IMG/VR virus record: IMGVR_UViG_3300032236_000307
Coordinates: 1 to 51,453 of that record
Reading direction: 5' to 3' (one strand)
From: a virus
DNA: 51,453 nucleotides
Made by a program: the position numbers and the translations under genes. Below, in pieces: positions 41,487 through 43,918 of the stretch. The notes beneath the pieces are model-generated. The model made no database searches. It saw only the letters and a list, made by a program, of their open reading frames with translations, and was not told the origin of the DNA. Each line of letters opens with the position of its first letter. Within the stretch, counting starts at the first letter, position 1.

Positions 41487-42349
41487 GTTTCATTGACTTT
41501 GCACGAGCACACGGCGTGGAGATCGACCACGCCAAACTGTATGCATCAGATCGCATCAAGCGCACTGGTACCGTTGCCAAACCCAAGTCGGACAATGGTG
41601 CCTACTTCTGGGACGGTCAGCGTGGCTGGATCATGGATTGGTCGGGAGAGGCAAAAGTGATTTGGTACAACGACCCATCGGCACGACCATGGAGCGACGA
41701 GGAGAAACGTGCATGGGCGGCAAAGCGCCAAGCCCAGCAGACCGATCAACAGCACAGGTACGAGCAGGTGGCCTTGCAGGCCGATATCACTCTGCGGTCA
41801 GCCAAGACCATGACCCACAGCTATTTGCAGATCAAGGGCTTCAAGGATCTTGAAGGGCTGGTGCTGGACGATAAACTGCTGATCCCGATGCGCAACGTGG
41901 TGACCAACAGGTTGCAGGGCTACCAGCAGATCTACTGGGACGCTGAGAGCCGCAAGCATGAGAAGAAGATGCTGACAGGTATGCGTGCCAAGAATGCCGT
42001 CTTCTACCTTGGTCAGAGGGGCTTGGAGGAGGCTTGGCTGGTCGAAGGGTATGCCACTGGCCTGAGCGTCCTCCATGCCCTCAGAAGCTGTGGATTGAAG
42101 GCATCGGTGGTGGTGTGTTTTAGCGCAGGCAACATGGTGGCTGTTGCGGATCAGATACAGGGCAAGAAGTTTGTTTTTGCTGACAACGATGCCAGCCAGA
42201 CAGGAGAAAAATCGGCAATAAGTACGGGCTTGCCTTGGACGATGGCTGAAACTGTGGGCTGGGATGCCAATGATTTGCACATAAAGCAAGGCTTGTTTGC
42301 AGTGGTGAAAAAAATTATGGAGTGCCGAAATTCAGTGATATATTCCTGA
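41483..42349 (+). CDS. TOPRIM primase-like protein
   Basis: A 288-residue protein from ATG 41483, overlapping the helicase stop. The TOPRIM domain is at about 170-245: E178 in WLVEGYATGLSVLHAL, D224-N-D226 in VFADNDASQT, and a closing DANDLH. The N-terminal part (GAYFWDGQRGWIMDWSGEAK) is the phage primase-type front. TOPRIM proteins of this kind make RNA primers in partnership with a helicase. The end of the gene holds the extended -10 of the downstream RNA. Confidence 0.85.
   Translation: MSFIDFARAHGVEIDHAKLYASDRIKRTGTVAKPKSDNGAYFWDGQRGWIMDWSGEAKVIWYNDPSARPWSDEEKRAWAAKRQAQQTDQQHRYEQVALQADITLRSAKTMTHSYLQIKGFKDLEGLVLDDKLLIPMRNVVTNRLQGYQQIYWDAESRKHEKKMLTGMRAKNAVFYLGQRGLEEAWLVEGYATGLSVLHALRSCGLKASVVVCFSAGNMVAVADQIQGKKFVFADNDASQTGEKSAISTGLPWTMAETVGWDANDLHIKQGLFAVVKKIMECRNSVIYS
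42336..42344 (+). promoter_or_regulatory. Extended -10 promoter for the RNA island
   Basis: TG-A-TATATT at 42336-42344, inside the last codons of the primase-like gene. The -35 region is poor. The predicted start near 42351 coincides with the first base pairs of a 14-bp RNA helix beginning at 42352. Confidence 0.5.
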
Positions 42350-42350
42350 T

Positions 42351-43097
42351 CCTGTTTGCGATGTGTGAAGCGGGTTAGCGCCGCTTGTATTGGACTTCTT
42401 ATTCCTTATGTGCACAAACACTGCTTTATGTGAGCACATCGCAAACAGCCAACAAGTGTGTGGATTGGCAGGTACGAAGCCGGTCAAGTGGCCTCTGAAA
42501 GTTCGGTGTCTTGCAAGCCAGCCGACTTTAAGCTATTCATCCCGGTGCTCTGCATGGGTCGCGCCCATAACAGTCCACACTCTTGTTGGTGAAAGCACAG
42601 ACTGATGTGCGACATGTTTGGTTGCTCTTGCATGATTGGACGAGGCGCTGACCGTGGGCGGATATGAACAGACACGGAAGCCGGAGGTGGTCTAGAACGC
42701 CAAAGGATTGCCAAGCTGGAGATCAGTACCAGCCACCAACAGCTAACACGCATGGGGATTGAAGCAAATCTGGGCGGATCGTCAGCCGCACCAATGAGCT
42801 ACAACCTGACGGATCAGTCCCCAGTCGTGTTGGTGAAAGCGGATGCCTTGTACCAGTGTCGAATACGTTCAAGGACGTAGCGAGTAGCCAACAACCTACA
42901 CGCATGGGGATTGCAACGGCAGAGTTTGGTTCTGATGCATCCCGTGGGGTTAAGTGAAGTCCCCGCAGTCCCCAGCCGTGTTGGTGAAAGCTCAGTGACC
43001 CTGAGTAGCGAACGAAAGTGACCGAGGCGATCAGGAAAGGTAAAGAATATCTGCTATCAGAGCCTTGATGCAGACGCACAGACACCAACAACCCTTT
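42351..43097 (+). ncRNA. Large structured noncoding RNA, GOLLD-like
   Basis: About 750 bases without a credible protein gene but full of long perfect helices. The 5' end forms a 14-bp helix, CTGTTTGCGATGTG (42352-42365) with CACATCGCAAACAG (42435-42448), enclosing a 6-bp AAGCGG/CCGCTT hairpin. Three further arms have closing helices of about 16-19 bp, each followed by GGTGAAAGC. The RNA runs directly into tRNA-Met. Size, complexity, phage setting and tRNA adjacency are those of GOLLD RNA, a giant RNA first found in lake metagenomes and phages. The class assignment is unproven by sequence match; structured RNA is well supported. Confidence 0.65.
42449..42991 (+). repeat. Three repeated RNA arms with invariant GGTGAAAGC
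   Basis: Arm 1: CCAACAAG (42449) pairs with CTTGTTGG (to 42589) and continues through GTGTGGATTG/CAGTCCACAC. Arm 2: 42743-42761 pairs with 42815-42833. Arm 3: 42895-42913 pairs with 42966-42984. Every 3' strand starts CAGTCC and is followed by TGAAAGC, and every 5' strand ends GGATTG. Stem bases differ between arms, often in a way that keeps pairing. Confidence 0.75.
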
Positions 43098-43172
43098 AGC
43101 GGGGTGGAGAAGGAGTATCTCGACTGGCTCATAACCAGTAGGTCGTCAGTGCGAATCTGGCCCCCGCTACCA
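43098..43172 (+). tRNA. tRNA with CAT anticodon (elongator Met, or Ile2)
   Basis: A complete 75-nt cloverleaf. Acceptor AGCGGGG/CCCCGCT, D-stem GAGA/TCTC, anticodon stem ACTGG/CCAGT with loop CTCATAA, T-stem GTCAG/CTGGC with one G-T pair and loop TGCGAAT, discriminator A and encoded CCA. It lacks the initiator features. CAT could also be a lysidine-modified Ile tRNA. Confidence 0.9.
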
Positions 43173-43177
43173 AACAT

Positions 43178-43252
43178 TCCGAGATAGCACAGCGGTAGTG
43201 CAGTTGGCTGTTAACCAATTGGTCGGTGGTTCGATCCCACCTCTCGGAGCCA
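43178..43252 (+). tRNA. tRNA-Asn (GTT)
   Basis: A complete 75-nt cloverleaf. Acceptor TCCGAGA/TCTCGGA, D-stem GCAC/GTGC, anticodon stem GTTGG/CCAAT with loop CTGTTAA (anticodon GTT), T-stem GGTGG/CCACC with loop TTCGATC, discriminator G and encoded CCA. It follows the CAT tRNA by five bases and precedes a terminator. Confidence 0.95.
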
Positions 43253-43255
43253 AAT

Positions 43256-43274
43256 GCGACACGGTGTCGCTTTT
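43256..43274 (+). terminator. Intrinsic terminator of the RNA-tRNA transcript
   Basis: GCGACA-CGG-TGTCGC hairpin (43256-43270) followed by TTTT, three bases after the CCA of tRNA-Asn. It closes a transcript of about 920 nt beginning near 42351. Confidence 0.8.
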
Positions 43275-43277
43275 GAG

Positions 43278-43307
43278 TTGACATGTCGTGAGACCTGTTG
43301 ATAGAAT
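43278..43307 (+). promoter_or_regulatory. Strong sigma70-type promoter of a small RNA
   Basis: TTGACA (43278-43283, perfect), 18-bp spacer, TAGAAT (43302-43307, one base from consensus). No ribosome site or protein gene follows within the terminator-bounded unit. Confidence 0.75.
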
Positions 43308-43313
43308 TTGAAT

Positions 43314-43439
43314 CAAGTTGCAAGGTGTGGAAACCGAAGCAAGCAAAGCCGTTAAGTCAGATCCCGACCCCGACTGGGGTAGCGCGTCAGCCAAAAGCTG
43401 AGGTGTTTTTCCACCGGGGTCTGTCTTAACGGCTTTTTT
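43314..43439 (+). ncRNA. Compact phage small RNA, about 126 nt
   Basis: A unit delimited by the promoter at 43278 and an intrinsic terminator. The last part folds as a long hairpin with AAAGCCGTTAAG (43345-43356) paired to CTTAACGGCTTT (43425-43436). Within it are ACCCCG-ACT-GGGGT-type and CAGC-CAAAA-GCTG hairpins. GGTGTGGAAA near the 5' end can pair with TTTTTCCACC near 43410, which would form a pseudoknot across the inner loop. No open frame of note. Function unknown; it could regulate host or phage RNA. Confidence 0.65.
43345..43439 (+). terminator. Terminator hairpin of the small RNA
   Basis: A 12-bp perfect outer stem followed by a run of T (43434-43439), then GTTTT. The stem encloses a structured 68-nt loop, so it serves both as terminator and as the body of the RNA. 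Confidence 0.8.
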
Positions 43440-43880
43440 GTTTTCCACTGCCCTGCCGTACTCCGCACGAAAGCAAGCACCCCAGTCGTGGTGGCGCGGA
43501 AGGAAAGCGTACACGGTATGCAACCGTGGATTTGATGATGGTGATTGCCCGGACTGACGGGTATGACTTGTAGGCTGGATCGTTCTTTGGAATACGCAAG
43601 GTGGGGGCTTTGTTCCCCCTGAAAGTGCCAGCAAACCCAGAGTTCAGTACTGGGCACCATCATCAAGTTCATGGGCTAGGGGGCAGTTCCCGAATAATCC
43701 GTGCGGCTGGTCGAATCATCAAGCCGAGGGGTAGACGGTATCCAATCCGTCACATGATGATCCTGCTTGACAGGGGTGAAGCACCTTCCCTCTCTACTCC
43801 GGTTGGGGTAGGGGGGTCTTTGGGTGAAAGGAAAGGAAGAGGGGGGAGATGGGGGCAGGCCCCGCACCTGCCAGACTCAA
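43440..43880 (+). other. Noncoding, strongly structured stretch
   Basis: About 440 bases with no believable gene. TTGATGATGGTG (43532-43543) and CACCATCATCAA (43655-43666) form a perfect 12-bp helix enclosing 111 bases. That enclosed part holds GGGGG-CTTTGTT-CCCCC (43603-43619), a GCCCG/CGGGT hairpin and CCCAG/CTGGG. Further hairpins include CACGG/CCGTG near 43512 and GACGG/CCGTC near 43740. A purine-rich (GGGGGAGATGGGGG-like) tail ends before the next promoter. Probably part of another structured RNA or a 5' leader; no promoter is clear. Confidence 0.5.
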
Positions 43881-43897
43881 ACCCCGTGTTAGACTTT
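43881..43897 (+). promoter_or_regulatory. Early promoter motif before the 2OG oxygenase gene
   Basis: ACCCCGTGTTAGACTTT, with TAGACT (43890-43895) as -10 after TGT. It shares CGTGTTAGACT with the other early promoters; the upstream CTAA part is absent. The gene starts 24 bases after the -10. Confidence 0.5.
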
Positions 43898-43918
43898 AAC
43901 CAAACAACTGGAGAACCC

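Follow-up and report, generated by a model that had tools for sequence, protein, structure and literature searches.

The window analysed here is a stretch of viral DNA of 51,453 nucleotides (nt), IMG/VR record IMGVR_UViG_3300032236_000307. The element of interest is a noncoding gap of 748 nt (42350-43097) between a primase-like open reading frame (stop at 42349) and a tRNA-Met gene. An original prediction from the sequence proposed that the gap encodes a giant structured RNA of the GOLLD type, with a 14-bp closing helix and three long arms, transcribed from an extended -10 element through two tRNAs to a terminator at 43274. The promoter element, the RNA domains of the gap, the tRNAs and the terminator-like stem described below all lie on the + strand. 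ARAGORN identified tRNA-Met (CAT; 43098-43172) and tRNA-Asn (GTT; 43178-43252), which score 56.5 and 68.1 bits respectively against the Rfam tRNA model. A stem resembling an intrinsic terminator was found by pattern matching at 43256-43274 (stem 43256-43270, then TTTT). The -10 element, TGATATATT, was found at 42336-42344, where it overlaps the primase stop codon. It is a putative promoter from which transcription would be expected to start near 42351; a promoter scan detected no -35 box ahead of it. Among related loci, which are designated by L and a number, a hexamer of the TATATT/TATACT type occurs at the same place, at the primase stop codon, in L120, L122, L127, L231 and L098, and TACACT occurs in L179. 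These relatives carry the array of RNA modules described below, and the hexamer is absent in the array-less relatives L121, L125 and L128-L132. A transcript of ~920 nt running from the -10 element through both tRNAs to the terminator is plausible.

The closing helix is exactly as predicted. Positions 42352-42365 pair with 42435-42448 to form a perfect helix of 14 bp, the sole inverted repeat of this kind detected in the region. The minimum free energy of 42351-43097 is -274.2 kcal/mol compared with a shuffled mean of -250.1 (z -3.0, 20 shuffles), and the unconstrained minimum free energy fold already contains 52/60 of the pairs that were derived comparatively. The three long arms (42449-42589, 42746-42833 and 42898-42984) are also present, and one repeated sequence is common to all of them. 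They are homologous copies of a single module, which we call M and which consists of ACACGCAUGGGGAUUG, a variable insert and CAGUCCCCAGCCGUGUUGG. The analysis goes beyond the original prediction in finding that the arms are module copies, that the 14-bp helix closes a separate domain, that the whole region has a repeat-module architecture, and that more noncoding elements lie downstream (43278-43900).

Each M contains an outer and an inner helix. In M1 (42449-42589), a member of the repeat family with homologues elsewhere, the outer helix is 42452-42456/42582-42586, the inner helix is 42460-42467/42571-42578 and the insert is 103 nt; in its GUGUGUGGAUUG/CAGUCCACACU, the changes relative to GCAUGGGGAUUG/CAGUCCCCAGC are compensated. 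The corresponding helices are 42746-42750/42826-42830 and 42754-42761/42815-42822 in M2 (42746-42833), and 42898-42902/42977-42981 and 42906-42913/42966-42973 in M3 (42898-42984). Inserts range from 24 to 104 nt. The internal loop CA(U)/(A)GC between the helices is conserved, with the facing U and A invariant (165/165). M is a rigid two-helix frame that accepts variable inserts.

Many IMG/VR contigs were recovered with a 14-mer from the right side of M and a 16-mer from the left side; the abundances given are lower bounds. Using pairing criteria, M was identified in at least 134 loci (at least 127 non-redundant), mostly in IMG/VR, with two to four copies in at least 33 of them. Wherever the context was checked the two halves were found paired around a variable insert. 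In an alignment of 56 sequences, double changes occurred in 12/17 M pairs, with 41 such cells compared with 8.5 in shuffled data (0/500 shuffles); covariation among homologues, proposed as a check when the RNA was first predicted, is therefore present. The signal was destroyed by sliding the partner strands. The instances in both the 134 loci and the 56 sequences were partly selected for pairing, and a set chosen by the outer anchors alone was used as a check. In that set all 8 bp of the inner helix were paired in 136/153 instances, against a shuffled mean of 119 and maximum of 124 (1000 shuffles). Examples with both strands changed are GAGTATTG/CAGTACTC and GAAGACTG/CAGTCTTC. Among the non-Watson-Crick pairs of M, G-U is frequent and A-C is rare, and covariance model R1 scores M2 at 58.3 bits on the + strand and 19.5 on the - strand, and M3 at 56.2 and 20.5. 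The structured strand is therefore the + strand, read toward the tRNAs.

Every M ends in GUUGG, and a closing CCAACA follows within 300 nt in 108/158 M copies, which defines a second kind of domain, K. Pairing one and two steps further into the GUUGG/CCAAC helix is 0.96 and 0.81, compared with shuffled maxima of 0.93 and 0.72. K types number in the dozens, and in the window K domains alternate with M. The 5' domain, of type K3 (42352-42448), is the one closed by the 14-bp helix. It contains a D-like hairpin (42369-42385, loop GUUAGCG at 42374-42380) and a T-like hairpin (42419-42432, loop UGCUUUAU at 42422-42429), whose loops are predicted to pair through A42377-U42425, G42378-C42424 and C42379-G42423. 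Across 45 instances the K3 loops have the consensus NNNRGCN (D-like) and UGCYNNAU (T-like), and at the R-Y loop pair 40 have A-U, 5 have G-C and none has a mismatch. The closing helix averages 9.9 bp over these instances, compared with 7.0 for shuffled partners (maximum 7.7). When K3 was picked by loop letters alone, the stems were paired at frequencies of 0.60 and 0.84 versus 0.11 and 0.39 in shuffled data.

Domain K1 (42585-42740; closing helix 42585-42591/42734-42740) was found by both structure-only and loop-only searches. Its hairpins, at 42595-42610 (loop GACUGA) and 42715-42733 (loop AGAUCAGUA), could form a loop-loop helix between ACUGAU (42601-42606) and AUCAGU (42722-42727). The loops of K1 hairpins that were picked on structure alone, GRCUGA and (A)UCAGY, are complementary, with a mean complementarity of 4.8 that barely exceeds the shuffled maximum of 4.6; a second search gave 45 instances with at least 4 pairs against a shuffled maximum of 41. 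Pairing between the K1 loops is plausible; their core varies very little, which makes the evidence weaker than for K3. K2 (42829-42892; closing helix 42829-42833/42888-42892) recurs in a cluster of 17 cassettes, and its GAA (42835-42837) opposite AGUA (42883-42886) is possibly a bulged-G (loop E) motif. K4 (42980-43089; closing helix 42980-42986/43083-43089) shares its interior with the last K of L086 and ends 8 nt before tRNA-Met.

An acceptor-like stem with D-like and T-like hairpins and complementary loops, the pairing of which is predicted, was found among the K domains of the window. Several K cassettes elsewhere share the layout of tRNA (RF00005). Some score 44.9, 40.1 and 35.4 bits against the Rfam tRNA model, and cassettes of L237, L184 and L229 exceed its gathering threshold. 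K domains differ from tRNA in that the anticodon arm is replaced and the acceptor-like stem is shared with the adjoining M.

Comparison of relatives points to exchange of whole domains. The closest relative, L120, encodes a primase 97% identical to that of the window and has the order 5' K3 - M1 - K2 - tRNA-Met. The window has K1-M2 and M3-K4 in addition, with breakpoints at the repeated junctions GTTGGTGAAAGC and CAACAACC; the difference in units was read from the sequences, as global alignment misplaces the deletion. Two further relatives, L121 and L125, lack both the array and the tRNAs. Copies of one M insert are joined to different K domains in different loci, and certain cassettes serve as an M insert in one place and as K in another. 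Growth and loss of arrays by recombination of whole domains fits these observations, and the domains are shuffled among no fewer than a hundred freshwater phages, of which the window phage is one. No conserved reading frame was found across the stretch, in which the inserts differ in length and whole units are gained or lost; no codon-level test was run.

M is rare in sequenced hosts, occurring in 1/186 Polynucleobacter genomes, with two weak matches among 399 genomes of the family. One strong match, in Polynucleobacter sp. UK-Kesae-W10, lies in the prophage L250, where a noncoding stretch of ~1.4 kb with M and K1 (~1885 to 504, minus strand) ends at tRNA-Gly, and two copies were found in a Burkholderiales metagenome-assembled genome. 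BLAST of the consensus M and of the L029 array against cultured phages gave no match, and with the whole region the best matches listed cover the tRNA part only. Cultured phages carry K1, not M. The K1 domain was found in L250, HK620, KP591P1 and phiEt88; a tRNA follows it closely in Klebsiella phage KP591P1 (tRNA-Ser, 6 nt downstream) and in Erwinia phage phiEt88 (tRNA-Phe, 15 nt downstream). The K1 stretch of HK620 gave partial matches in 351 phage records (E<=1, many short). A recurring hairpin, stem-CGGAAAGACG-stem, was seen near the modules in L250, L180, L240 and L165, and also in phiEt88.

Within 1.5 kb of the modules, 33 tRNAs were detected in 20 loci, and 33/33 are on the module strand. 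The expectation of a large structured phage RNA on the + strand directly before phage tRNAs was borne out, and co-transcription with them is probable; the -10 element, the two tRNAs and the terminator-like stem are all located where they had been placed. Within an M insert of L189 (2932-3004, module strand), ARAGORN reports a tRNA whose anticodon has 4 bases.

Frames resembling the tag of transfer-messenger RNA (tmRNA) were seen in L262 (phage P1, ~68943), L260 (HK620), L261 (Felix O1), L258 (KP591P1), L266, L275, L282 and L307. They encode ANDDLMMVAA, ANEEMYLAVA, ANDNVFLAVA, ANDDVVLMAA and ANDEQFLAVA with synonymous codon changes, and lie in noncoding stretches, mostly near a K1 domain or tRNAs. 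In these phages the Rfam models tmRNA_permuted and tmRNA score 20-24 and 11-13 bits respectively, both below threshold. In a 2014 survey of ssrA, the phages listed are mycobacteriophages and Bacillus phage G alone (PMC4131195). No credible tag frame (GCAAACGA...TAA) was found in the window array, where the only candidate, ANESDRGDQER in K4, has no hydrophobic end of the usual kind.

Two noncoding elements downstream of the tRNAs were also observed. The first (43278-43440) is probably another RNA, with a separate candidate promoter (TTGACA-18-TAGAAT, 11/12); its terminal stem, GCCGUUAAG...CUUAACGGC, is long. This element is retained in relatives without the array, for example L131. The other (43534-43664) is a K1-like domain with closing helix GAUGAUGGUG/CACCAUCAUC and hairpin loops GACUGA and AGUUCAGUA. 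It sits in a noncoding stretch of ~460 nt before the next gene and has a counterpart in L180. The portal-like protein of the window phage is 80% identical to that of a Manatee Spring phage and 45% identical to those of Caulobacter phages.

The window was then compared with known RNA families. When it was run through cmscan against all 4227 families of Rfam 15, nothing but the two tRNAs passed the gathering thresholds, and HEARO and every other family besides tRNA were rejected for want of a match. To our knowledge the large RNAs of phages, GOLLD and ROOL among them, have no known function. These two are phage-encoded, tRNA-adjacent giant RNAs of lake-type phages (PMC12286853), and the RNA of the window, phage-encoded, ~750 nt long and next to tRNAs in a lake-type phage, has the same context. 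GOLLD (RF02032) resembles it as a large structured phage RNA by tRNA genes, with a variable part that can itself contain tRNAs, and ROOL (RF03087) as a large phage or prophage RNA near tRNA islands. Further traits of GOLLD are its assembly into an oligomeric nanocage and its induction at lysis. That the RNA is a divergent GOLLD or ROOL, a giant phage RNA self-assembling into a cage, is nevertheless highly improbable. A dedicated GOLLD search gave no match in the window record at E<=10, and no giant-RNA family of Rfam was found either in the window (E<=10) or, at gathering thresholds, in 15 related loci. ROOL likewise gave no match at E<=10, although in that dedicated search the control genomes were also silent. 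In place of one universally conserved 3' domain, the RNA has tandem M/K modules that are swapped between phages. Membership in GOLLD is thus not upheld; as for the other suggestion, of a related unnamed class, the context agrees and neither a sequence nor a structural relation to GOLLD was found. A GOLLD-like architectural role, as a cage or scaffold, is possible.

The gap very probably encodes a modular RNA. We favour, with a probability of roughly 0.6, the explanation that the locus produces one long noncoding transcript in which at least seven domains stand in tandem, 5' K3 - M1 - K1 - M2 - K2 - M3 - K4, followed by tRNA-Met and tRNA-Asn. Exchange of DNA cassettes or sites for recombination or packaging, such as attC-like or stem-loop repeats with no function as RNA, could also account for the shuffling of cassettes and for copy numbers that differ between close relatives, and the gene after the array is terminase-small-subunit-like in 11 loci. 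Integron attC sites have imperfect stems, variable middles and cassette exchange, and by eye they resemble the array. By the same inspection the array differs in its loop-loop pairing, in G-U pairs that are specific to the RNA strand and in having no attC core (GTTRRRY) at its ends. The G-U pairs occur on one strand only, which is always the tRNA strand, the loops covary, and array and promoter-like hexamer are gained and lost together. A purely DNA-level reading is already disfavoured and we consider it very improbable.

Only slightly less improbable is a cis-acting leader, similar to a riboswitch or attenuator, that controls a downstream gene or the tRNAs. Many loci have a ribosome-binding site and start codon within tens of nt after the last K, and the K1 stretch of HK620 is in the late leader, downstream of pR' and ahead of the tQ terminator given in the annotation. 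Action in cis on one gene is disfavoured because the genes downstream of the arrays differ widely and are unrelated between phages; the window has tRNAs and a terminator instead of a gene, and the architecture is far bigger and more variable than that of known riboswitches. A cis leader role is possible. As a separate observation, the gene after the array often encodes a small protein with VADF[IV]ST[ML][LF]HS.TV.HFMHL (11 loci, e.g. L241, L151 and L166 among the M loci). A decoy directed specifically at the trans-translation or tRNA machinery, titrating SmpB or EF-Tu or shielding from tRNA-directed defences, has a somewhat better claim but is unlikely. In its favour are the tRNA-like layout of K1, K3 and several other K domains, the tmRNA-like tag frame linked to the related K1-containing RNAs of P1-, HK620- and Felix O1-type enterobacterial phages, and the suggestion that a phage molecule consisting only of a tRNA-like domain titrates SmpB (PMC4131195). 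The window array differs from tmRNA (RF00023, RF04321) in having no credible tag frame, and scores stay under gathering even in those phages; K domains have neither a CCA end nor a canonical anticodon arm, and many K types are unlike tRNA.

Several points weigh against the favoured explanation of a modular RNA transcribed with tRNAs. Adjacency to tRNAs is not universal, as a tRNA was detected nearby in only ~20/134 loci, and in the wide K1 set a tRNA lies within 700 nt in only 5/102 viral loci. The covariation instances were partly selected for pairing, as noted above. Most M copies vary little and the phages of IMG/VR exchange DNA, so recent spread may explain part of the conservation. The window's own K domains are all below the Rfam tRNA threshold. 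The structure is deduced from sequence comparison and the transcript is predicted, and the mechanism proposed below is conjectural.

The likeliest mechanism, which we put forward tentatively, is that factors of tRNA handling or translation are the targets of the RNA, which would serve as their multivalent tRNA-like scaffold or decoy. Transcription would start from the -10 element, and RNase P cleavage at the 5' end of tRNA-Met would free the ~750-nt RNA and set the 3' end of the array. The folded RNA would then act in trans during infection. M would be a conserved recognition or assembly element, and K1, K3 and the tRNA-matching K domains would present an acceptor-like stem, a D-like hairpin, a variable filling and a T-like hairpin adjoining the acceptor strand. 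New phage variants would arise by whole-domain swaps at the shared junctions. A broader possibility, at least as doubtful, is a combinatorial phage RNA system, in which interchangeable, independently folding, mostly tRNA-like domains are shuffled into giant RNAs that are co-transcribed with tRNAs and interfere with or mimic the host tRNA or ribosome-rescue machinery, with tmRNA-like tag frames in the enterobacterial versions (P1, HK620 and Felix O1 types).

We conclude that the array belongs to a new class of phage RNA, modular and cassette-shuffling, that is probably transcribed with tRNAs. Its novelty was judged against Rfam 15 and the open-access literature, in which no description of M/K modules was found. 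Exchangeable domains offer a handle on giant RNAs, since they can be deleted, swapped and tested singly, and natural swaps, such as the window versus L120, already exist. The Polynucleobacter prophage and the cultured phages that bear K1 provide tractable hosts. The finding suggests that in phages RNA, as protein does, evolves by domain shuffling, with tRNA-like folds as a building block.
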